A stretch of 48,593 nucleotides of DNA, taken from positions 1 to 48,593 of the IMG/VR virus record IMGVR_UViG_3300035698_017518. One strand, given 5' to 3'. Shown piece by piece: positions 3,571 through 34,876 of this stretch. A program made the position numbers and the translations under genes. The notes beneath the pieces are model-generated. The model did not search any database. It saw only the letters and a list, made by a program, of their open reading frames with translations, and was not told the origin of the DNA. The stretch comes from a virus. Positions within the stretch are counted from its first letter, which is position 1, and each line of letters opens with the position of its first letter.

Positions 3571-4098
3571 TTAGACTGTTGGATACGTCGTCGCGGGGCG
3601 GTTATATCTGATAAAATCTACCAAGTGAACCAAATCGTTGTGGGAGACAAACCGGTCTTTCACCTTTATGGTATTCACAAAAACGCCCTCTCCCATGTCC
3701 AGAAGGAGACCCTCGATAAGAGAGGTGGGCGCTTTCACCGACTGTTCTCCGTTTGGCCCCACGGAGAGAAACTCCACCGCGTTATCCGAATAGTCTACTT
3801 CGAAACTGATCTGGGAGTCCGGCAATACTGATTTTTTTATGGGACGTCTGGATAAAATTCTCTCAAGTGTTGTTTTCCTGTGATTTACGAAATCAGACTC
3901 TTTAGGGGAAAACATGAGGTGGCTCCCGTCATACCCGACAAACTTACCCGGGATATCGCTAGAAAGGATCACGGCCTCGTTGGATCTCCCAGAGAGCCAT
4001 TTGAGACCATGCTCTTTTAGAAGAGAATCTAACACGACCAGCGCCACCTTTTCGTCGGGGACTCTGAAGTAGAATTTTTTGTTTGATGTATTTTCCAT
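3571..4098 (-). CDS. paralog array member 1, two-domain hypothetical
   Basis: I take the ATG at 4096-4098 (MENTSNKKFYFRVPDEKVAL) because the longer frame would overlap the upstream gene and its first 22 residues look non-coding. It has 175 residues. The N-terminal domain has the pattern basic-aromatic strand, then a helix ALVVLDSLLKEHGLKWLSG, then an acidic loop. The second half (ISFEVDYSDNAVEF through VHLVDFI) matches the second halves of 4486-5121 and 6864-7391 in pattern. The first-domain pattern recalls small phage proteins of unknown role. Function unknown. Confidence 0.6.
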   Translation of the reverse strand: MENTSNKKFYFRVPDEKVALVVLDSLLKEHGLKWLSGRSNEAVILSSDIPGKFVGYDGSHLMFSPKESDFVNHRKTTLERILSRRPIKKSVLPDSQISFEVDYSDNAVEFLSVGPNGEQSVKAPTSLIEGLLLDMGEGVFVNTIKVKDRFVSHNDLVHLVDFIRYNRPATTYPTV

Positions 4099-4108
4099 GT
4101 TATTGTGT

Positions 4109-4309
4109 CTAGTTCCCCCACGGGGCAAGCGAAACTTTAACGGCGAGAAAGACCAAAATCGCAACAGATATTAAATTGGCAACCGCTTGCGCTATTCTGT
4201 TTCTGAGTTCCATCTTTTTAAGAGCGGTCAGCGACTGGTTGTAAGAAGCGAGAGTTCTCTCTACGAAATCCCGTTCCCCTCTTCTTAGAGCATCTATTTG
4301 TTCTTTCAA
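4109..4309 (-). CDS. coiled-coil protein with C-terminal membrane anchor
   Basis: From the TTG at 4307-4309 this encodes 66 residues: a charged helix (KEQIDALRRGERDFVERTL) and then a membrane segment near the C-terminus (LISVAILVFLAVKV). The same frame stays open upstream to about 4445 without an ATG and reads plausibly (IQSEKPEKTRNLIHGEDLEE). The 26-residue ORF at 4374-4454 lies in another frame just upstream. Either initiation is at TTG or ATT, or a +1 frameshift or sequence error joins the two. Confidence 0.5.
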   Translation of the reverse strand: MKEQIDALRRGERDFVERTLASYNQSLTALKKMELRNRIAQAVANLISVAILVFLAVKVSLAPWGN

Positions 4310-4373
4310 TTCTTCCAGATCTTCGCCGTGAATAAGATTTCTCGTCTTCTCGGGCTTTTCTGACTGGATATCG

Positions 4374-4454
4374 TTATTTCCGCCAATAGTTCGCCCCTTC
4401 TGCCAATTTAATTGTAAGCTTCTTGTGTTCTTCGTCCAACATAGTATTTTTCAT
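4374..4454 (-). CDS. short ORF upstream of, or N-terminus of, the anchored protein
   Basis: ATG-initiated frame of 26 residues beginning MKNTMLDEEHKKLTIKLAEG, positioned correctly just after the promoter at 4462-4489. It stops at TAA inside the open frame of the next gene. It could be a leader peptide coupled to gene 4109-4309 or the real N-terminus of that protein read through a +1 frameshift. The residues look like a normal amphipathic helix. Confidence 0.35.
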   Translation of the reverse strand: MKNTMLDEEHKKLTIKLAEGANYWRK

Positions 4455-4461
4455 TTGTGGT

Positions 4462-4489
4462 AATATAGCACAACCGCGACACTTGTCAA
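4462..4489 (-). promoter_or_regulatory. sigma-70-type promoter
   Basis: TTGACA (4484-4489) and TATATT (4462-4467) on the minus strand are 16 nt apart. The -35 box contains the TGA stop codon of gene 4486-5121. The ATG at 4454 follows closely after the -10 box, giving a very short leader. Confidence 0.65.
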
Positions 4490-5121
4490 CCCGGTTTTAC
4501 AAAAGGATGCCCCCAAGCCGCCTTCAGACCATGCAAAATGCGGTCAATGCGATAGGAACCCGTAAGGTTAACCGCGACAAGGTCCGGGATGACAGCTTTT
4601 TTCGCAATGACGGAACCGGTGGCCCGCTGTTTGTTTTCGGAATATTCTGCCAGCTTACTGATTCGCAAAAGTTCCTCCCTCTTCACAGAGAAACCCGCAA
4701 TATTTACAGATTCTACGCAGAACGACGCATGGATCAGAGATTTGAATTGTGTTATCGGGTATCGGAGAACACTCAACGCTGATGTAAATACTACGGTTTG
4801 ATCTCCGGAACAGACCTCGACGGACAGATCGCCGCCAGCAACCCGGAAACCCCGGTTCAGGAAAAAAATCTCCTCCAAAGAAATGGCGGGCACGTCTTTG
4901 TAATCCACGACTCTGGGGCATTCTGTTAGCTCCAGCTCTTTATATGAATTTAAAAAATAGTAATGGCCCCTCCCGCTGTAGTGACAACAGGAGACCACTT
5001 GCTCGTTTGTATCGTCACTCGCCCATGTAAAGCCGAAATTGTCGGAAAGAAAATTCAGCGCGACGGTGGCGATTTCCTTATTGGGTGCGTAAAAATAAAC
5101 GTTGTCCTTTTTGATGTCCAT
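4486..5121 (-). CDS. paralog array member 2, two-domain hypothetical
   Basis: A 211-residue protein starting MDIKKDNVYFYAPNKEIATV. The N-terminal domain shows the family pattern: aromatic strand, helix TVALNFLSDNFGFTWAS, Cys-containing loop, and a closing ISLEEIFF motif at about residues 80-87. The second domain (DLSVEVCSGDQTVVF onward) resembles that of members 1 and 5. A C-terminal extension of about 45 residues, ending HPFVKPG, is unique. The closing motif and helix resemble T4-type phage early ORFs of unknown role, which is a pattern judgement from memory. Its stop forms part of the downstream promoter. Confidence 0.6.
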   Translation of the reverse strand: MDIKKDNVYFYAPNKEIATVALNFLSDNFGFTWASDDTNEQVVSCCHYSGRGHYYFLNSYKELELTECPRVVDYKDVPAISLEEIFFLNRGFRVAGGDLSVEVCSGDQTVVFTSALSVLRYPITQFKSLIHASFCVESVNIAGFSVKREELLRISKLAEYSENKQRATGSVIAKKAVIPDLVAVNLTGSYRIDRILHGLKAAWGHPFVKPG

Positions 5122-5127
5122 TTTGGT

Positions 5128-5580
5128 TTAGAGTGTTGTTTCGGCGGCATTCCAGCCCGCTTTGAAAGTTTTGAATTTCGCGACGGTGATGGCGAAGTCG
5201 CCCTCCTCGCAGTATTTTCTCCATCCTCCGAGGAGGTCGGGAGATTCTTCTTCCGGGTTATTCTCCCGAGAAAACAGAGACTCCAACGTGAGTTCTATTG
5301 GACTGGTACCACAAAAATCCATTCCTCCAGAGGAAATCTCGTTCCTCATCCAACTTTCCGAACTGTATGTCAACGATACAGGAGTGCCGTCATTAAATTT
5401 CAAAAAAATTGCCACCCTATCATTTTCTTGGGAAGAACCCTCTTTGTTGAAGTTGCGAAAAGCACCCCCTTCTTCGAACGGGAAGCCAAGGGATTTAAGC
5501 CTAGACACGACCGCATCCGCGACTCTGTTTTGCCTTGTGACAACGAAGGAACTCTTATCTCTTTCTATTTTTGTAATCAT
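5128..5580 (-). CDS. paralog array member 3, single-domain hypothetical
   Basis: A 150-residue protein starting MITKIERDKSSFVVTRQNRV. It carries the first-domain pattern: strand SFVVTR, helix ADAVVSRLKSLGFPF, long variable loop and a closing ELTLESLFS motif at about residue 100. The rest is a charged linker and a short tail that may be a shrunken second domain (DFAITVAKFKTF). It starts only 19 nt after the zinc-ribbon gene. Function unknown. Confidence 0.55.
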   Translation of the reverse strand: MITKIERDKSSFVVTRQNRVADAVVSRLKSLGFPFEEGGAFRNFNKEGSSQENDRVAIFLKFNDGTPVSLTYSSESWMRNEISSGGMDFCGTSPIELTLESLFSRENNPEEESPDLLGGWRKYCEEGDFAITVAKFKTFKAGWNAAETTL

Positions 5581-5599
5581 ATTTATAATTATACTCGAA

Positions 5600-5755
5600 T
5601 TATCTGCCGCACCCCGGGCAGATCGCCCGACCTTTTGATGTGTAGTTGACCCGCGCGTAGCAGTTGGGACAAATTCCTGCGAAATGGAATATTTTTCTCT
5701 TGTAATACCTGAACCGGTAGCCCAGCCTTATGAAGAATTGCCCGTAGAATTTCAT
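5600..5755 (-). CDS. 51-residue zinc-ribbon protein
   Basis: The frame begins MKFYGQFFIRLGYRFRYYKR and ends with CPNC (residues 29-32) and CPGC (46-49) separated by 13 residues, a clear rubredoxin-like zinc ribbon. The N-terminus is basic and aromatic, suggesting nucleic acid or membrane contact. A GGGGA purine stretch precedes the ATG and a TTGACA/TAGATT promoter lies just upstream. Such mini zinc ribbons are common in phages and usually uncharacterised. Confidence 0.65.
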   Translation of the reverse strand: MKFYGQFFIRLGYRFRYYKRKIFHFAGICPNCYARVNYTSKGRAICPGCGR

Positions 5756-5763
5756 TTTCCCCT

Positions 5764-5791
5764 AATCTACTCTACTTTTCTTAATTGTCAA
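5764..5791 (-). promoter_or_regulatory. sigma-70-type promoter
   Basis: TTGACA (5786-5791) and TAGATT (5764-5769) on the minus strand with a 16-nt spacer, immediately upstream of the zinc-ribbon gene at 5755 and just after the stop of gene 5796-6119. Confidence 0.55.
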
Positions 5792-5795
5792 GCGG

Positions 5796-6119
5796 TTATC
5801 CGGAGTTTGTCGGACTGATGTAGATAGGTGGTAAAGACAGGTGGTCGGCCATCAATTTGACCCTAGACTCCTCCTCGTCTATGTAGGCCAAGAAATCTTT
5901 TTTAAGCTGTTCTAAATTATCGCTTATCAACGTCCGGTCGTTTATAAATATCCACGAGGCCATCCAACAGAATATGACTTCTTTATCATTGACTCTAGTC
6001 TGACACATATAAAAACCGGGGCGGTTTGGATTGGGGACGATCCTATATTTGTAGGGGAAAACTTCCGGGGTGTCGTTCCGGACCGGTTTGGAGCACAGTT
6101 TTTTGAAAAAAGCAATCAT
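5796..6119 (-). CDS. hypothetical protein
   Basis: A 107-residue protein starting MIAFFKKLCSKPVRNDTPEV. The central part (YKYRIVPNPNRPGFYMCQTR through VIFCWMASWIFIND) reads as a beta-rich domain with many aromatic residues. A charged helix follows (LEQLKKDFLAYIDEEESR). It has no signal peptide and is not an obvious member of the flanking paralog family. The 38-nt gap before it contains a spurious-looking 12-codon frame whose TGA overlaps this ATG. Confidence 0.5.
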   Translation of the reverse strand: MIAFFKKLCSKPVRNDTPEVFPYKYRIVPNPNRPGFYMCQTRVNDKEVIFCWMASWIFINDRTLISDNLEQLKKDFLAYIDEEESRVKLMADHLSLPPIYISPTNSG

Positions 6120-6157
6120 GGTGATTCAAATATAATTTTGTTCCAGTTCTTCATGTT

Positions 6158-6679
6158 TTAGTAAGAAAAAAGTTCTTCCAGCGAAATCTCTTTTTTGTCA
6201 TCTGGATTGGTTGACGACCACGTAAGTCCCCCTTTCTCTGAAGTATTGAGAAAAACAAAGAATTTCTGCCGCTGCCGCCTGAAGATAAATTCATGAGCAT
6301 CCACCCCAGACCAAGAAAAACCGAGCTTGTCTATCAAAAAGTTCAACGCAACCAAGGCGGTTTTGTCATTAGAAAGACGCACGCACACATTCTCTTTTTT
6401 TAGGGGGCCGTCCGGTTCCATCGCCATCAGGTCGTCGATTAGTAGCGGTTCGCAACCCCTCAAAGGGAACATCGAATAAGAATATGAGACCTGACCGTCG
6501 TTATAATTGCCGACATTTATCGAGATATCTCCCTCCGCCACTCTTGTTCTAGTGGACGATGCAATATGATGGGTTCCGGAGCACCCGAGCTTTTTAAGCT
6601 GGGACAAAACCGCAGATACTACCGTGTCTGGCATATCTTTCGCCACCAGAATCGAAAATTTACCTTTTAAAATATCCAT
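6158..6679 (-). CDS. paralog array member 4, duplicated single-domain protein
   Basis: A 173-residue protein made of two copies of the first-domain pattern. Copy A runs from KFSILVAKDMPDTVVSAVLS to LLIDDLMAM (about 6-87). Copy B runs from NVCVRLSNDKTALVALNFLI to ISLEELFSY at the end (about 97-173). Each has strand, helix ending in a Gly-Phe or Gly-Cys turn, a variable loop, and a closing acidic-leucine motif. It follows the structured RNA-like element by 24 nt, so that element may be its 5' untranslated region. Function unknown. Confidence 0.6.
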   Translation of the reverse strand: MDILKGKFSILVAKDMPDTVVSAVLSQLKKLGCSGTHHIASSTRTRVAEGDISINVGNYNDGQVSYSYSMFPLRGCEPLLIDDLMAMEPDGPLKKENVCVRLSNDKTALVALNFLIDKLGFSWSGVDAHEFIFRRQRQKFFVFLNTSEKGGLTWSSTNPDDKKEISLEELFSY

Positions 6680-6703
6680 GTTTCTCTAAATTGAATTGTT
6701 TTG

Positions 6704-6847
6704 GCCCCATGTGGGGCGATAACTAGTCTGCCGCCGTCGCCTCCCGTCTCCACGGGTAGTAACGGTATAGCGCGCTCTCCGCGACTGCGGTGCTTACGCT
6801 GTAGACCAACTGCACACGTTACCACGCAGCTCGCTAGTTATCGCCCC
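6704..6847 (-). ncRNA. candidate structured RNA or 5'-UTR switch
   Basis: A perfect 14-bp stem (6834-6847 with 6713-6726; arms GGGGCGATAACTAG and CTAGTTATCGCCCC) encloses 107 nt. Read on the minus strand the interior contains CCGC-AGTC-GCGG nested in AGCG/CGCT, CCCGT-GGAG-ACGGG, and a weak CTGC/GCAG hairpin with G-T pairs. The 3' end of the closing stem can instead form GCCCC-ACAT-GGGGC (6717-6704), which excludes the big stem. No gene fits here. The ATG of gene 6158-6679 follows after 24 nt. I match it to no known RNA family. A mobile inverted-repeat element is the main alternative. Confidence 0.6.
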
Positions 6848-6863
6848 ATCCGAACAGAAAAGA

Positions 6864-7391
6864 TTAGACCGAAGTGGAATCTTCCACAAATTTCAAAACC
6901 TTATTGATCTCTTCCTCCCCGAGGGTCTTGCACCCGACCTTGATTTTCAAAACCTGAATCTGAAAATTGCCGGCTTGCCCCGTGAGAAGTCCCACAACCT
7001 CTTCTTTTGACAACGAGAGTTTTTCACCGTAGCCAGTTGATTCGAACTCGAAACGATGTTCTTTGTAATCGACCGTAAGACCCCCGTCGAGAAGTGTCAG
7101 TTTAGAAACGACCTTCGCGTCGAGAAGTGTCAGTTTAGAAACGACCTTCGCGTTGAAAAGTTCATCGATAGTCAGGTGGGTCGCGTTTGACGGGATGCCC
7201 TGAGAATTGCTATAACTCCCCACGTCGCTATATTCCGGTCTTAAAATGATCACACAATTGCCGGAGTCACAGGCTTCGTCCTTCACTCCAGCAGGAACCC
7301 CGAACCCGAGTTCTTCCAACTTTTCTACAATCAGCGGCCCGATTTCTTTGGTCGGAACCCTCACCGCGTATCTTTTGTCTTTGAATTTCAT
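6864..7391 (-). CDS. paralog array member 5, two-domain hypothetical
   Basis: A 175-residue protein starting MKFKDKRYAVRVPTKEIGPL. The first domain has the strand RYAVRVP, helix GPLIVEKLEELGFG and closing motif LTIDELFN at about residues 73-80. Between the domains the 11-residue unit AKVVSKLTLLD is present twice in tandem. The second domain (GLTVDYKEHRFEFE to EINKVLKFVED) matches member 1 best. A weak promoter lies upstream and the structured element lies downstream of its stop. Function unknown. Confidence 0.6.
   Translation of the reverse strand: MKFKDKRYAVRVPTKEIGPLIVEKLEELGFGVPAGVKDEACDSGNCVIILRPEYSDVGSYSNSQGIPSNATHLTIDELFNAKVVSKLTLLDAKVVSKLTLLDGGLTVDYKEHRFEFESTGYGEKLSLSKEEVVGLLTGQAGNFQIQVLKIKVGCKTLGEEEINKVLKFVEDSTSV
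7085..7150. repeat. 33-nt perfect tandem duplication inside a gene
   Basis: Units 7085-7117 and 7118-7150 are identical. The period is a multiple of three, so the duplication adds 11 residues to member 5 and keeps the frame. The perfect identity suggests a recent event. Confidence 0.9.
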
Positions 7392-22370: not shown

Positions 22371-23474
22371 ATGAAAAAATTCAATCTACAAAAAGACGAC
22401 GCGAAGCTTGCGCTTTTGGCAGACCTCGGTTCTCGTGACCGTTCTGTGTCAGAATACGCCCAAGAGGTATTCGCCGCGCTAGTAGGCCCTGTGGCTGATG
22501 TGGTTCTTGATCAATCTTCTACATCCTCGCTGGTGTATAAGACGATGAGTTACGACTTTGACACGATGCCTTCTATCCCACTTCATCCGCTCGACGCGAA
22601 CGATGAAGGTTTGTTTGACGTGTGGTCCCAAAGCGCACCGGGTGGTCTAGCGACCAACCAAGTGTTCGGGGGCGACGAGTACAGGTTCGTAACGTTCCGT
22701 CTCGACTCCGCTGCAAGTATGCTTAAACGCTACATGCGCGACGGTCAGATCGACGCTGTGAACATTGTCCTTAACCGTCTCGTGCAGGAGCTTCTTCTCA
22801 AGCGTGAGTATAACGCATGGGTGCCGCTTATGAGCGCATTGGCAGGTGCAACCGATAGCAGTGGGAACGCCCACGTCATCGATGCGACTACCATTAACCA
22901 GTTTTCTCCTGACGACGTTTCGCGTCTGATCACGAAAGCTAAAAGGCTCCGCACTTCGTTTGTTGGAGGAACCCCGACCGTACGTCCTTACCGTGGTGTT
23001 ACCCACTTGGTTTGTTCGCCGGAGATCATGCAAGAAATTCGTGGTTTCTCTTACAACCCTGTGAACACCCGCCCGGGATCGATCACTTCTAGTGGCGCAA
23101 CTGCCGTTCCCCTTCCGGACTCAGTCCGTATGGATATCTGGAACAGCGGTGGTCTACCAGAGATCTTCGGTGTGAAGTTCATCGAGCTTATGGAGTTCGG
23201 CGTAAGCAGACCTTACAACATCCTGTTCGACACGAACTACACCGGTTCTACCCCTGCATTTGACTATGCTGCGGACGAGCTTGTTATGGGTCTTGACCTC
23301 AGCACCGACGCATTCGTCAGGGCTACGGCTAACAACCCAGAAACTAACGCTTCTGTCACCATCGAGCCAGACGACCAGTTCGTCCGTCGCTCTGAGCAGG
23401 TTGGCTGGTTTGCTACCTTGGAAGAAGGTTACGTTGTAACAGACTCAAAAAGCCTCACGGGGCTGGTCGTGTAA
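22371..23474 (+). CDS. major capsid protein
   Basis: A 367-residue protein after protease/scaffold and decoration genes, followed by a strong terminator, which fits the most expressed gene of the head module. The length fits the HK97 fold. Segments such as YMRDGQIDAVNIVLNRLVQE (a possible spine-helix region) and TRPGSITSSGATAVPLPDSV are of the expected type, but no single residue motif proves it. The codon choice looks restricted, as expected for high expression. The leader is A-rich with no Shine-Dalgarno. Confidence 0.8.
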   Translation: MKKFNLQKDDAKLALLADLGSRDRSVSEYAQEVFAALVGPVADVVLDQSSTSSLVYKTMSYDFDTMPSIPLHPLDANDEGLFDVWSQSAPGGLATNQVFGGDEYRFVTFRLDSAASMLKRYMRDGQIDAVNIVLNRLVQELLLKREYNAWVPLMSALAGATDSSGNAHVIDATTINQFSPDDVSRLITKAKRLRTSFVGGTPTVRPYRGVTHLVCSPEIMQEIRGFSYNPVNTRPGSITSSGATAVPLPDSVRMDIWNSGGLPEIFGVKFIELMEFGVSRPYNILFDTNYTGSTPAFDYAADELVMGLDLSTDAFVRATANNPETNASVTIEPDDQFVRRSEQVGWFATLEEGYVVTDSKSLTGLVV

Positions 23475-23500
23475 TTAACATAACTTAAACATTAATAATA

Positions 23501-23532
23501 GAGGGGACGGGAAACCGTCCCCTCTTTTTTTT
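23501..23532 (+). terminator. rho-independent terminator after capsid gene
   Basis: GAGGGGACGG (23501-23510), GAAA loop, CCGTCCCCTC (23515-23524), then eight T. The 10-bp stem is perfect. It separates the capsid transcript from the connector genes. Confidence 0.95.
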
Positions 23533-23572
23533 ATCTAGACCTGATTTAAATATTCACACAAGACAAGAAGGG

Positions 23573-29376: not shown

Positions 29377-29382
29377 GTGTAA
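29377..29382 (+). promoter_or_regulatory. GTGTAA motif
   Basis: GGTGTAAATATCAC right after the stop of gene 28504-29376 and 19 nt before the tape measure start, which also has a good AAGGAG Shine-Dalgarno. Confidence 0.45.
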
Positions 29383-29401
29383 ATATCACTAAGGAGTAAG
29401 G

Positions 29402-32400
29402 ATGGCTGACGAAATTTTTAATATAGCGCTCGATACGCGCAAAGCGGAGAGGGATGCTGCCCGTTTGGACAACCAGATGCGCAAGCGTCTCTCCCGCCCG
29501 ATCTCCATAGGCATCGACTCTTCCGGGATAAACAAATTCCAGAGTCAACTCAGGGGTCAACCCCTCGGCAAAATCACCGGAGACCTGAGCGATTTCGACA
29601 AGTCTCTCGCCGCCTCTAACGCGCGGGTTATCGCTTTCGGAGCTAGTGCCGGAATATTTGTTGCTGTCAGAAAGGCATTCGGTGCTCTGGTCGGTGACAT
29701 GATAGAGGTCAACAAGGCACTTACAGATATCAAAGCCATCTCGGGCGGGACGAACGCAGAAATCAAACAACTGGGAGCCTCTCTTTTTGACACCGCCTCG
29801 TCAGCGGGACAAAGCTTTACCACAGCGGCGACAGCAGCGGCCGAGTTTTCGAGACAGGGACTACGTGCGAACGGAATTATAAAAGCTACCAGCGCGGCGC
29901 TGATCCTTCAAAGGATTTCTGGTCTGGAAGCGGCAGCTTCTGTAGAAGCCCTTACGGCGGGGGTTAATAGCTTTAGCAAAGAGGGTCTTTCCCACATAGA
30001 TATCGTCGATAGGATCGTGGCTTTGGATACGGCCTATGCAGTTTCCGCACGGGACCTTGCAGAAGGTCTCAAGCGTGTTGGTTCGACAGCACTTGACGCG
30101 AACGTTAGTTTCAACGAACTCGCTTCCGGTATCTCCGCTGTCCAGCAGCTAAGTGCCCGTGGTGGTGCGGTTATCGCTAACGGTTTTAAAACGATCTTCA
30201 CCAGACTACAAAGAAATAGCGTAGGGGAAATACTTGGAGAAATCGGTGTGGCCACAAGGGATTTGAGCGGTGATTTCCGTGGTGCCTTCCCTATCCTTCA
30301 GGATATGGCGCAAGCTTTCAAGGAACTGGGTTCAGCCCAGCGTGCTCAGATATCTGAGAGCGTGGCGGGTGTGTTCCAGATCAACACGTTAAAAACCCTT
30401 CTGAATGACCTGTCTAGCGAGCAGAGTATCTACTCGGAGGCGCTCAACAAAACAACCCTCGCCTCGGGCGGTGCGGAGCAAAGGATCAAAACGCTCAACA
30501 AGAGCTACGCGGACCAGATTCAGACTTTACAAAATGCTGTAAAAAGTTTAAGCGCCGGTTTCGGCGAAGATATTTTTGGCGGTCTCGTTTCGGGGGGTGC
30601 TCCAATCGCGACCGCCATAGCAAAAAGTTTTGACGACAAGGCGGAGTTCGACAATATATCCGAAGACATCACCGCCGCGATAGTAAAGGGTGTCGCGGGT
30701 GGTCTCGCCAATGTACTAGAGGGTCCGGCTATCGCAGCTATTGCCGTGACTTTAGTCAAATTGGGGAAACTGAGCGGTGGTGCTTTGATTGACGCCCTCA
30801 AGTCTATCAACGCGATAGGACAAAAATCTACAGAACTTAACTCTACCACGAGCAGGGGGAGAGCTTTAATAGAAAAGAATACCTTTCAAAGAAACAAAGA
30901 GTTCGGTATCGTACAAAAGATCGTCAATGCGGAAAATGCTGTCGGTGCCGCAGCAAGGAGAACCCTTGCGACAGAACAGCTAAAAATACGGTCCGCGCAG
31001 ACACTACTTTCCCTAAAGCAAAAAGAGGCAACGGCTTCTGCTAACGGCCTTGTCGCCCACAGAAAGCCACTGCCTCCACGCCCCGATTTCATAAGACAGC
31101 CTCTGGGCCCCAAGGAGCCGTCGCGTCTTCAAAAAACCAAAGGGGTCGCGTCCCGTTTTGCGGGGAGTACAAGGGGGGTAGCTGGTGCTAGTTTTGCGCT
31201 TCCACTCGCCATAGGGGGTATTACCAATAACATCAAAGACCGTGGTGAGGGTGCCGACTTTGCCGACAGCTTGGCTTCCGCAGCGGGAACTTTTGGTATC
31301 TTGGCTACTCTGGGACCTTTCGGTGTAGCTATCGGGGGTCTTATCGGTGGCGTCCAACTGCTTCACGCCTCAATCGACTTTGCAACCCAGTCATCCACGG
31401 AACTCGCCGAAGAAATCGAGAAATCTAGGGAGGAAGCTCAGGAACTAACTGCGGCGATATCATCGTTCACGGGCGCGGCCAACTCTCTTGAAGAACTCGT
31501 TGACAGCGGGACAGCTTCCGCCTCGGCGGTGACAAAAGCGACTCAGGATTATGTTGCCAAACTGGGTAACATAAAAGACAATAATCTCAGGGGGGAACTC
31601 GCATCCGCAAGCGGTCCTGATGAAAGGTCTGATATCCAAAGAAATTTCGAACGGTCTCAGGGACGCGACCAGAGTCTTCAAAACGTAGAACTTCTTCTCC
31701 TCAAATCAGCAGAAGACAACTCTGCTTCTATCTCCGGAGACTTCGGAAGTTTCGGAGAGACGCTGAGGCAGATATTGAGTTTTGGAGACTCGGAGACCCT
31801 CTACGGTCTGGAGTCTACCCTAGGGCAAAAAGGTCAAATTGACGCCAAGTCTTTGGGCGCTGCCGTAGATAGCGTAGTTTCCACTTTGGACATCTCCTCG
31901 TTCATACAACAGGACCCCTCTAACGCAAAAACTGTAGAGGAGCGGGACACTATCCAAAAACGGAACGAAGAAGCATCGGCAAACGTTCTGGGGCTCAGGG
32001 GGAACATAGACGATAGAACAAGTAAAGCCGACCTGTCAAAATTCAAGATAACCCGCGAACAACTAGATTCGATAGACCAGTTCAGCGAGTCTCTCGACTT
32101 ACAGCAGGGTAAGTTTGGCAAACTGACGGCCGAGGGTGCCCTCGCGGCTATCGAAACAGCTAATTTCGCAACATCTATACAGGGGATGAGGAAGGCGACG
32201 GCTCAGGCGTCTCGTAATTTTGCCGACTCTATAAAACTTTTCACCAACGAAAGAAAGAACCTTCTATTGGACAGCGGGCAAGAGGACAAAGACTCGCTCT
32301 CTGACAACAAAAATCGCGTCAGTATATTGTCCGCGCTCACGGGACAGACATCCCCGGACTTGAAGAAGCTCATCGCGATACAAGAGACTCAGGTTAACTT

Positions 32401-34876
32401 TTCGGCGTCTCTCCTCGATATCCAGTCCGAAGCTCTCAAGGAAGTAGAAAAGGCGGCCACAACGGCAAGCACACCTCAAGCAAAAAAGGCTATTTTAGAC
32501 ACTTTAACCGCCGTTAAAGAAGGGGACAAAAACATCGTCCAAGCTCTGGTTGATCTCAGGAAAGAACAGTCTCTGTCCCAAGAGGATGGTGTAATACAAG
32601 AGCTGCGGAACGTGGGAGAGTCCATGAGGAAAGCGCAGGAAGAGGCGGAGAGGACTCGCATCGCCGCACTAAACGAAGCTAGGAAAGATTACGAGACACA
32701 GATCAAAATCGAAGAGAACACACGCTTCCAAGGCAAGGCGGACGCATTCAATATAGATTCTTCCGAGTTCGCTAGGGCTCAGGAGGAGTTCTCCTCTGCA
32801 CTTTTCGAGTTCGCTCGCGGCGGCCTCCAAAAAACTATACGCGACAGAGAGAGAGAGTCCCCCCGCTCGTTCACCAAAAACGAAAGACTATCCTTTTCTC
32901 AGGGTCAGAGTGATCTTCGCAATGAGAAGGGTGACGAGGAAGGTTCGGCTAGGAGGTTGATTAACTCTGTCCAAAAACTCGTTTCCCTAGGGTTGTTCGA
33001 CGCGAAAGACAAAGGACAAAAAGACTCTATCCGAGAGGATATTGTAAACGCCCACCGCGTGATTTTCGAGAACCAGACAAGAGAGGGTGCTCTCGGCTCT
33101 ACAAAACAAAGCCTGAAAGAGGCTTCTGACGCGGGAGGGGGTTTTGACCCGACTAGAATTATAAACGCCAACACCAAGGATATCCTCAAAGAAGTCGAAT
33201 TTGGCGATATAAGCAAGGCCATCTCTCGCGTAGAATCCCTTCTCGCAAAGGGTTTGGGCAGCAATTCTTCTCCTATACTGAGGGATTTGATCGACGGGCT
33301 GAAGGGGGCTGAAAAAGACCTGTCCGAGGCTCGTGGAGTCGGCGAAACCGGTGCTGCCAGAATATTACCCGATTTTGATCCAGACACGAAACGCATCAGG
33401 AAAGGCATCGAGAGCATAGACGCTAAAATAAAAGACTTCACAGCGCAAAATCCGTCGCTTTTCATCGACACGAAGGGTGCTTCGGGGGATGTCCTAAACG
33501 CCGACCTCGGGGCTGTAAATGGGAAAATAGACGAAAATATTAAAAAATTAATAGCCGCGAGACAAGAACAGGGCGGTTTTGATTTATCTGAAATAAGCCC
33601 GTTCAACAAAGGGAGATCGGAGAGGGTCGCTTCTTTGGAGAAGGTTGATTTCAACACCGATGTAGTAAAGACAGAAAAACCTATAGCGGAGCGAGAATCC
33701 GAAGAGTCGAGTAGAGACTTTAGAGAAAGAAACTTAGGGCTTGGCTTCGGTGTCAAAAGGGAAATTTTAGAGGCGTATCTTGACGGGTTTGACAAAGACG
33801 AGATTATATCGCAGGTTTCGGAGGGGAAAACCCTTAGCCAGTCCGGGGTAAACACCGAAAACAACATAAAGACAGCAAAGGATATTTTCGAGAACTTGCA
33901 GGGACAGTTCGTGTCTCTCGATGATACCGACGAGAATGATATCGACGCGGTTCAATTCAGGGATGCGATAAGCAAATTCGACGAACTTACAAGAGTAATA
34001 AAACAACTCGAAGTTGACAGAATTAAACTAAGCGACGAGAAGGGTGCTATAACCGCTAAACTCAGGGAGGGGAGGCAAGCTTCTGTTTCCGGGAGTTCTG
34101 CTCGAATATCGGAAACCGTCACGTCCAGATTGGACGAAAGCTCCGTGAGACGTTCTGACGAACTTCCAAAACGCACAGCACAAAAAGATGTGCCGGAAGA
34201 AATACGCAGCTTTGAATCACAGTTTCTTGCCCCTCTGAGAAACGAACAGAAAGCTAGGAAAGAAGCTATACAGATCCAAAATTTAGAGAAATTTAGCACG
34301 CCCGCGAACCCAGTAGGGACAACCGGGAGGCTAAGTCTATTCGGCGGACAACAAAGCGAGGAGGAGAAATACAGAATCCGTAAAATCGGAGAACCTGATG
34401 CCACCCCTCCGCCCGCGTTCCAAAAGATCGTTCCGAAGCTGGTTATTATTAGTTCCAAACCGCGCAATACAGAAGGTCAGGGAATAGACTCGTCCAATGC
34501 TAAAATAGACGCCCTACAAAAGCGAAGAGCGCAACAGGAAAAGGACAAAGAAAGCCCTACCGACACAAAAGAACAGCCGTCCCGGGACAACAGGGAGATC
34601 GAACGTGCGTCCGAGTCTAACCTAGAGTCCTCCAAAGCTTTACTTGAGTCCTCTAACGCAATGGCAGAGGCATCGAAAACACTCGCCTCTTCTAACATAA
34701 AAGTGTCGCAGGATCTGAAAATCACTATCGAGAGTCTACCCGGAAAAGGTGGGAAGGACGGTAGTGATTTATTCGAAAGTGCTCTGTTCGTTTCTAAGCT
34801 CAAAGCTCTGGTGGAGGAGACGAGGAAAGAGGCGGAGACTAGAACGAACGGGGTTTCCATCGGGAAAATAGCTTAG
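29402..34876 (+). CDS. tail tape measure protein
   Basis: An 1824-residue protein, the longest gene. The first 350 residues show the tape-measure core (IAFGASAGIFVAVRKAFGAL, then LTDIKAISGGTNAEIKQLGA). A hydrophobic stretch at about 590-660 (FALPLAIGGITN, then LATLGPFGVAIGGLIGG) could insert into the host membrane during DNA entry. Residues after about 700 are helical, charged and Ser-rich coiled coil. By the rule of about 0.15 nm per residue, it predicts a tail near 270 nm. A strong Shine-Dalgarno precedes the ATG. It shares one base with the next GTG. Confidence 0.92.
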   Translation: MADEIFNIALDTRKAERDAARLDNQMRKRLSRPISIGIDSSGINKFQSQLRGQPLGKITGDLSDFDKSLAASNARVIAFGASAGIFVAVRKAFGALVGDMIEVNKALTDIKAISGGTNAEIKQLGASLFDTASSAGQSFTTAATAAAEFSRQGLRANGIIKATSAALILQRISGLEAAASVEALTAGVNSFSKEGLSHIDIVDRIVALDTAYAVSARDLAEGLKRVGSTALDANVSFNELASGISAVQQLSARGGAVIANGFKTIFTRLQRNSVGEILGEIGVATRDLSGDFRGAFPILQDMAQAFKELGSAQRAQISESVAGVFQINTLKTLLNDLSSEQSIYSEALNKTTLASGGAEQRIKTLNKSYADQIQTLQNAVKSLSAGFGEDIFGGLVSGGAPIATAIAKSFDDKAEFDNISEDITAAIVKGVAGGLANVLEGPAIAAIAVTLVKLGKLSGGALIDALKSINAIGQKSTELNSTTSRGRALIEKNTFQRNKEFGIVQKIVNAENAVGAAARRTLATEQLKIRSAQTLLSLKQKEATASANGLVAHRKPLPPRPDFIRQPLGPKEPSRLQKTKGVASRFAGSTRGVAGASFALPLAIGGITNNIKDRGEGADFADSLASAAGTFGILATLGPFGVAIGGLIGGVQLLHASIDFATQSSTELAEEIEKSREEAQELTAAISSFTGAANSLEELVDSGTASASAVTKATQDYVAKLGNIKDNNLRGELASASGPDERSDIQRNFERSQGRDQSLQNVELLLLKSAEDNSASISGDFGSFGETLRQILSFGDSETLYGLESTLGQKGQIDAKSLGAAVDSVVSTLDISSFIQQDPSNAKTVEERDTIQKRNEEASANVLGLRGNIDDRTSKADLSKFKITREQLDSIDQFSESLDLQQGKFGKLTAEGALAAIETANFATSIQGMRKATAQASRNFADSIKLFTNERKNLLLDSGQEDKDSLSDNKNRVSILSALTGQTSPDLKKLIAIQETQVNFSASLLDIQSEALKEVEKAATTASTPQAKKAILDTLTAVKEGDKNIVQALVDLRKEQSLSQEDGVIQELRNVGESMRKAQEEAERTRIAALNEARKDYETQIKIEENTRFQGKADAFNIDSSEFARAQEEFSSALFEFARGGLQKTIRDRERESPRSFTKNERLSFSQGQSDLRNEKGDEEGSARRLINSVQKLVSLGLFDAKDKGQKDSIREDIVNAHRVIFENQTREGALGSTKQSLKEASDAGGGFDPTRIINANTKDILKEVEFGDISKAISRVESLLAKGLGSNSSPILRDLIDGLKGAEKDLSEARGVGETGAARILPDFDPDTKRIRKGIESIDAKIKDFTAQNPSLFIDTKGASGDVLNADLGAVNGKIDENIKKLIAARQEQGGFDLSEISPFNKGRSERVASLEKVDFNTDVVKTEKPIAERESEESSRDFRERNLGLGFGVKREILEAYLDGFDKDEIISQVSEGKTLSQSGVNTENNIKTAKDIFENLQGQFVSLDDTDENDIDAVQFRDAISKFDELTRVIKQLEVDRIKLSDEKGAITAKLREGRQASVSGSSARISETVTSRLDESSVRRSDELPKRTAQKDVPEEIRSFESQFLAPLRNEQKARKEAIQIQNLEKFSTPANPVGTTGRLSLFGGQQSEEEKYRIRKIGEPDATPPPAFQKIVPKLVIISSKPRNTEGQGIDSSNAKIDALQKRRAQQEKDKESPTDTKEQPSRDNREIERASESNLESSKALLESSNAMAEASKTLASSNIKVSQDLKITIESLPGKGGKDGSDLFESALFVSKLKALVEETRKEAETRTNGVSIGKIA

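Follow-up and report, generated by a model that had tools for sequence, protein, structure and literature searches.

What is the stem-closed, G+C-rich sequence that fills the gap between two minus-strand genes of this tailed-phage genome: an RNA element, a mobile DNA or an accident of sequence? We analysed a virus record of 48,593 bases, referred to here as the window, which carries tailed-phage genes, among them those for a terminase, a portal-sized protein following the terminase, PhoH, a sigma-like protein and an M15-type peptidase. The 184-nt gap between genes 6864-7391 and 6158-6679 is filled by an inverted repeat element (Table 1), and it sits within a run of minus-strand genes whose other gaps are short. 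No convincing gene was found in this region, which agrees with the preliminary description of the locus. The G+C content of the element (6712-6848) is 61%, compared with 38-40% in its flanks and 8-47% in ten other intergenic gaps of the window.

Table 1. Positions of the element, its parts and the adjoining genes in the window.
Feature	Position	Strand	Remarks
Whole stem-closed G+C-rich element	6712..6848	-	137 nt; strand given is that of the flanking genes, as strand of action a convention only
Left arm of the 15-bp perfect inverted repeat	6712..6726		3' arm on a minus-strand transcript
Right arm of the 15-bp perfect inverted repeat	6834..6848		5' arm on a minus-strand transcript
Interior	6727..6833	-	G+C 64%; many possible hairpins; fold no better than shuffled sequence
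Small hairpin GCCCC-ACAT-GGGGC	6704..6717	-	Overlaps five pairs of the long stem; no U-tract after it
Upstream gene	6864..7391	-	175 aa, no known family; stop codon 15 nt before the element
Downstream gene	6158..6679	-	173 aa, no known family; start codon 32 nt past the element

The minus-strand run (3571-7391) consists of genes of no known family, none of which gave a Pfam match or a significant PHROG match, and some of their products are weakly similar to the 6158-6679 protein (22-42% identity by alignment). Within gene 6864-7391, a perfect in-frame 33-bp tandem duplication (7085-7150) encodes DAKVVSKLTLL twice; it is either a recent duplication or an assembly artefact. Two further features lie elsewhere in the window: a 136-aa open frame (1716-2126) whose match to N6_N4_Mtase is confined to the final 35 positions (185-219 of 221) and which is apparently a truncated DNA methylase, and a region without a clear gene (1176-1417) that carries short tandem and dispersed repeats (GGCCACCCAAAAACCCGCA; GACATATTTGAATCCCCGC).

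The end stem and the stability of the fold

The two arms of the element, TGGGGCGATAACTAG (6712-6726) and CTAGTTATCGCCCCA (6834-6848), pair at 15 of 15 positions with a duplex energy of -26.6 kcal/mol. The arms lie where they had originally been reported and are perfect as claimed, the stem being one pair longer than the 14 bp first given. No other perfect inverted repeat in the window with its arms within 250 nt is as long, and a repeat of at least 15 bp within that distance appeared in 3 of 400 dinucleotide-shuffled versions of the full window; the length of the end stem probably exceeds chance. A count of perfect inverted repeats of at least 15 bp with a spacing of 60-300 nt gave seven in roughly 2.7 Mb of phage DNA, the element's own included, so that about one window in eight would be expected to contain one. 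The remaining non-coding long repeats listed from this DNA are mostly A+T-rich simple sequence, unlike the element. Finding a repeat this long somewhere in a 48-kb window is not rare, but finding one of mixed sequence exactly in a gene gap is, and the stem-closed architecture by itself is uncommon rather than unique.

The whole 137-nt element folds better than shuffled sequence (z of -4.7 for the minus and -5.2 for the plus strand). Because the 105-nt interior alone (6728-6832) folds no better than shuffles on either strand (z of -0.34 and -1.05, respectively), this excess stability resides in the end stem; the internal hairpins of the preliminary description do exist as sequence, but they do not go beyond chance. 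Moreover, the plus strand folds equally well, as expected of any inverted repeat, and folding therefore does not single out RNA over DNA. Single-sequence folding proves little in any case, since a coding stretch (29380-29560), located where the 1824-aa gene 29402-34876 begins, contains a strong RNA hairpin with a z of -3.5. A second long-range repeat in the window (4170-4412, 12 bp) gave fold z scores of just -2.1 and -1.3, and a window-wide fold scan was uninformative on the element, as its frames never contained both arms.

These measurements bear directly on the plainest explanation, that the element has no function and that its inverted repeat arose by chance in an intergenic patch rich in G+C. 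Consistent with this explanation are the seven comparable repeats in 2.7 Mb, the shuffle-like interior and the lack of any conservation found; the rarity of 15-bp repeats among the shuffles, the mostly A+T-rich simple sequence of the other listed repeats and the placement of this one exactly between two genes argue against it. We consider chance an unlikely account, albeit one with appreciable weight. What is plain is that the inverted repeat is genuine and the hairpin mildly unusual.

A different proposal was that the locus is a switching 5' leader (a riboswitch or attenuator) of gene 6158-6679, in which the small hairpin GCCCC-ACAT-GGGGC and the long stem would be mutually exclusive. The hairpin is present and shares sequence with the 3' arm, and 32 nt separate the element from the start codon of that gene, which lies downstream. 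Forcing this hairpin to form, however, makes the fold less stable by 7.0 kcal/mol (minus strand) or 9.4 kcal/mol (plus strand), and even then 10 of the 15 pairs of the stem persist, so the element makes no convincing switch: rather than two mutually exclusive folds of similar energy, as expected of a riboswitch, it has one weak alternative compatible with most of the stem and an interior at the shuffled level. In addition, the alternative hairpin has no U-tract, the start codon lies outside it and Rfam is negative. Taken together, these results make a switching leader highly improbable.

Known RNA classes, retrons and integron sites

No Rfam family matched anywhere in the window, and near the element there were merely two hits below the gathering threshold (15.3 and 14.0 bits); the earlier statement that the element could be matched to no known RNA class thus held up when Rfam covariance models were applied. 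ARAGORN reported 0 tRNA or tmRNA genes. An intrinsic terminator was also rejected: the small hairpin is followed by AAAACAATT or GATAACTAG on the two strands, neither of them a U-tract, and no terminator-like site is listed at 6700-6850. Just past gene 22371-23474, by comparison, a hairpin (AGAGGGGACGG/CCGTCCCCTCT) followed by a T run makes a good intrinsic terminator (23500-23533), so this phage seems to employ U-tract terminators at the places that call for them. No sigma-70-type promoter is listed near the element, a weak test in the case of this phage and its host, and the window contains no match to a Bacteroidota-type promoter pattern. Reverse-transcriptase, integrase and transposase families were absent from the window proteins scanned, which included those of all genes beside the element.

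A separate small non-coding RNA of the phage, about 137 nt long and arising from this locus directly or by trimming, would suit the closed multibranch fold and its size, the G+C richness against an A+T-rich background and a z of about -5. It would do so, however, with neither a listed sigma-70-type promoter (subject to the weakness of that test) nor a U-tract terminator nearby, with no Rfam family and with an interior that is not specially structured, and we regard it as rather doubtful. The more specific idea of an undescribed, discrete RNA of this size working in trans, which might for instance regulate a host RNA or defence system or serve as its decoy, seems less probable again.

Retron RNAs (msr-msd) and integron attC sites are of similar size to the element. 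The length of the arms recalls the long a1/a2 closing stem of a retron, and on the minus strand a TAGC motif adjoins the 5' arm; an a1/a2-like stem followed by TAGCGAG is, we presume, reminiscent of the start of the Ec86 msr. The attC comparison draws on size and on the position just after a gene. Neither comparison extends further: no reverse transcriptase or integrase was matched among the window proteins scanned, no Rfam family exceeded its gathering score, and the RT-17 match is at chance level and falls outside the element's interior. Moreover, the stem is perfect here and imperfect in attC sites, and the arms read GTTATCG where the attC core requires GTTRRRY (PMC8876359). Both readings are largely refuted in the window, and the probability that we would still assign to them is very small.

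Further copies and relatives of the phage

Similar to miniature inverted-repeat elements (MITEs), the element is about 137 bp in size, has perfect terminal inverted repeats and lacks coding capacity, and it could be a decayed or non-autonomous DNA insertion between two accessory genes. The perfect, blunt 15-bp ends, the G+C content above that of the surroundings and the accessory character of the region, whose genes did not turn up in the relatives that were searched, all fit such an insertion. In contrast to MITEs, the element is single copy in the window and neither edge shows a target-site duplication, as the flanks (...CCCCATG and TCCGAAC...) share no common direct repeat; no related copies were found, and no transposase was recognised among the window proteins scanned. 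Arm-pair patterns had no match in IMG/VR (12-bp and 10-bp arms) or in GTDB genomes (10-bp arms), although these scans require exact arms and diverged copies could escape them. Identical copies flanked by target-site duplications, which the preliminary description had named as the mark of a mobile element, were therefore found neither in the window nor by the arm-pair scans of these two collections. The lone 15-bp arm occurs once each in 47 genome and 19 viral stretches, scattered among unrelated organisms, and only four of these carry a loose second arm (4 mismatches) within 400 bases, which is about the chance level by our own estimate. As with chance, we consider an insertion unlikely, albeit with appreciable weight.

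Homologues in related phages, which the preliminary description had suggested looking for, were likewise missing from searches by blastn, covariance model and arm pattern. Among phage and plasmid records, blastn gave no match covering more than 15% of the query. The phage belongs to a little-known lineage of tailed phages of which hardly any members have been sequenced. In a set of 50,697 phage records, megablast matched nothing to the window's first 25 kb, tblastn matched nothing to the 22371-23474 protein, and terminase matches were below 28% identity among the matches listed. Terminase alignment instead led to nine IMG/VR contigs, newly found relatives with 33-47% terminase identity. Eight of the nine have the gene order PhoH, sigma-like, unknown, ERCC4, terminase, and in eight the portal follows the terminase. 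Neither blastn nor a single-sequence covariance model detected the element in any of the nine. The neighbouring genes of no known family were not found in them either, as far as searched (nearly the whole length of the three largest, at 148-179 kb, was covered), and since the flanking genes are missing there too, the absence of the element from these relatives is not evidence against its conservation. So far, then, the element is a private intergenic hairpin with no detectable relatives.

Several other features emerged from these genomes. The terminase genes of two relatives (L106:8699-10000 and L097:10244-10915) have long in-frame insertions whose sites differ: one interrupts the Walker A motif (GSGKC...HNT), and the other, which starts with C and ends with HN, precedes LRGYR. 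From their sequences, both read like inteins. Relative G013 carries a 172-nt stretch (L254:17478-17649) with a 12-bp perfect stem, 61% G+C within a 43% region and a z of about -5, which overlaps a 37-codon open frame and for which neither phage records nor Rfam gave a good match. As a counterpart of the element it was rejected, because it shares no sequence with it and is not matched by the covariance model; it can be no more than an analogue. The same holds for a 126-nt stretch closed by a 17-bp perfect stem (L022:3131-3256; z of -5.2), which adjoins further A+T-rich palindromes in an unrelated phage that has a DNA methylase gene.

A tentative reading as an intercistronic hairpin

Tentatively, and at less than even confidence, we favour the reading that the element is an intercistronic mRNA hairpin between two co-directional genes, serving message stability or double-strand processing. 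We favour it because a perfect 15-bp stem is unlikely by chance, because the element lies wholly within a gap of a same-strand gene run, because the whole element has a fold z of -4.7 and a stem duplex energy of -26.6 kcal/mol, and because its G+C content stands above that of its flanks and of the other gaps. Against it count the lack of any homologue that could be aligned for covariation, the unremarkable interior and the equal folding of the plus strand. Our confidence is modest because a decayed, repeat-bounded insertion and plain chance remain as alternatives.

The stem, the tight co-directional position, the G+C richness and the missing U-tract can be read directly from the DNA. By analogy with known RNase III sites in bacterial messages, we infer that the minus-strand cluster would be transcribed through 6864-7391 and 6158-6679 as one message, and that the RNA of the gap would fold in the cell into a hairpin closed by 15 perfect pairs. 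The upstream message may then have its 3' end shielded by this stem, the stem may be cleaved by an RNase III-type enzyme specific for double strands, or both may occur, and the two genes would be expressed separately as a result. RNase III cleavage in bacterial messages is established either to speed decay or to stabilise the message that remains (PMC5371410).

If the element is merely an intercistronic hairpin, it has little consequence beyond annotation; should RNA data reveal a discrete transcript, it would instead count as a new small RNA, from a phage lineage of which very few members have been sequenced. The known systems closest to the favoured reading are the intercistronic RNase III or mRNA-stabilising hairpins of E. 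coli and phage T7. Those are simple hairpins, whereas the element encloses a multibranch interior of 105 nt. Like them, it places a long double-stranded stem between co-directional genes, with no U-tract.
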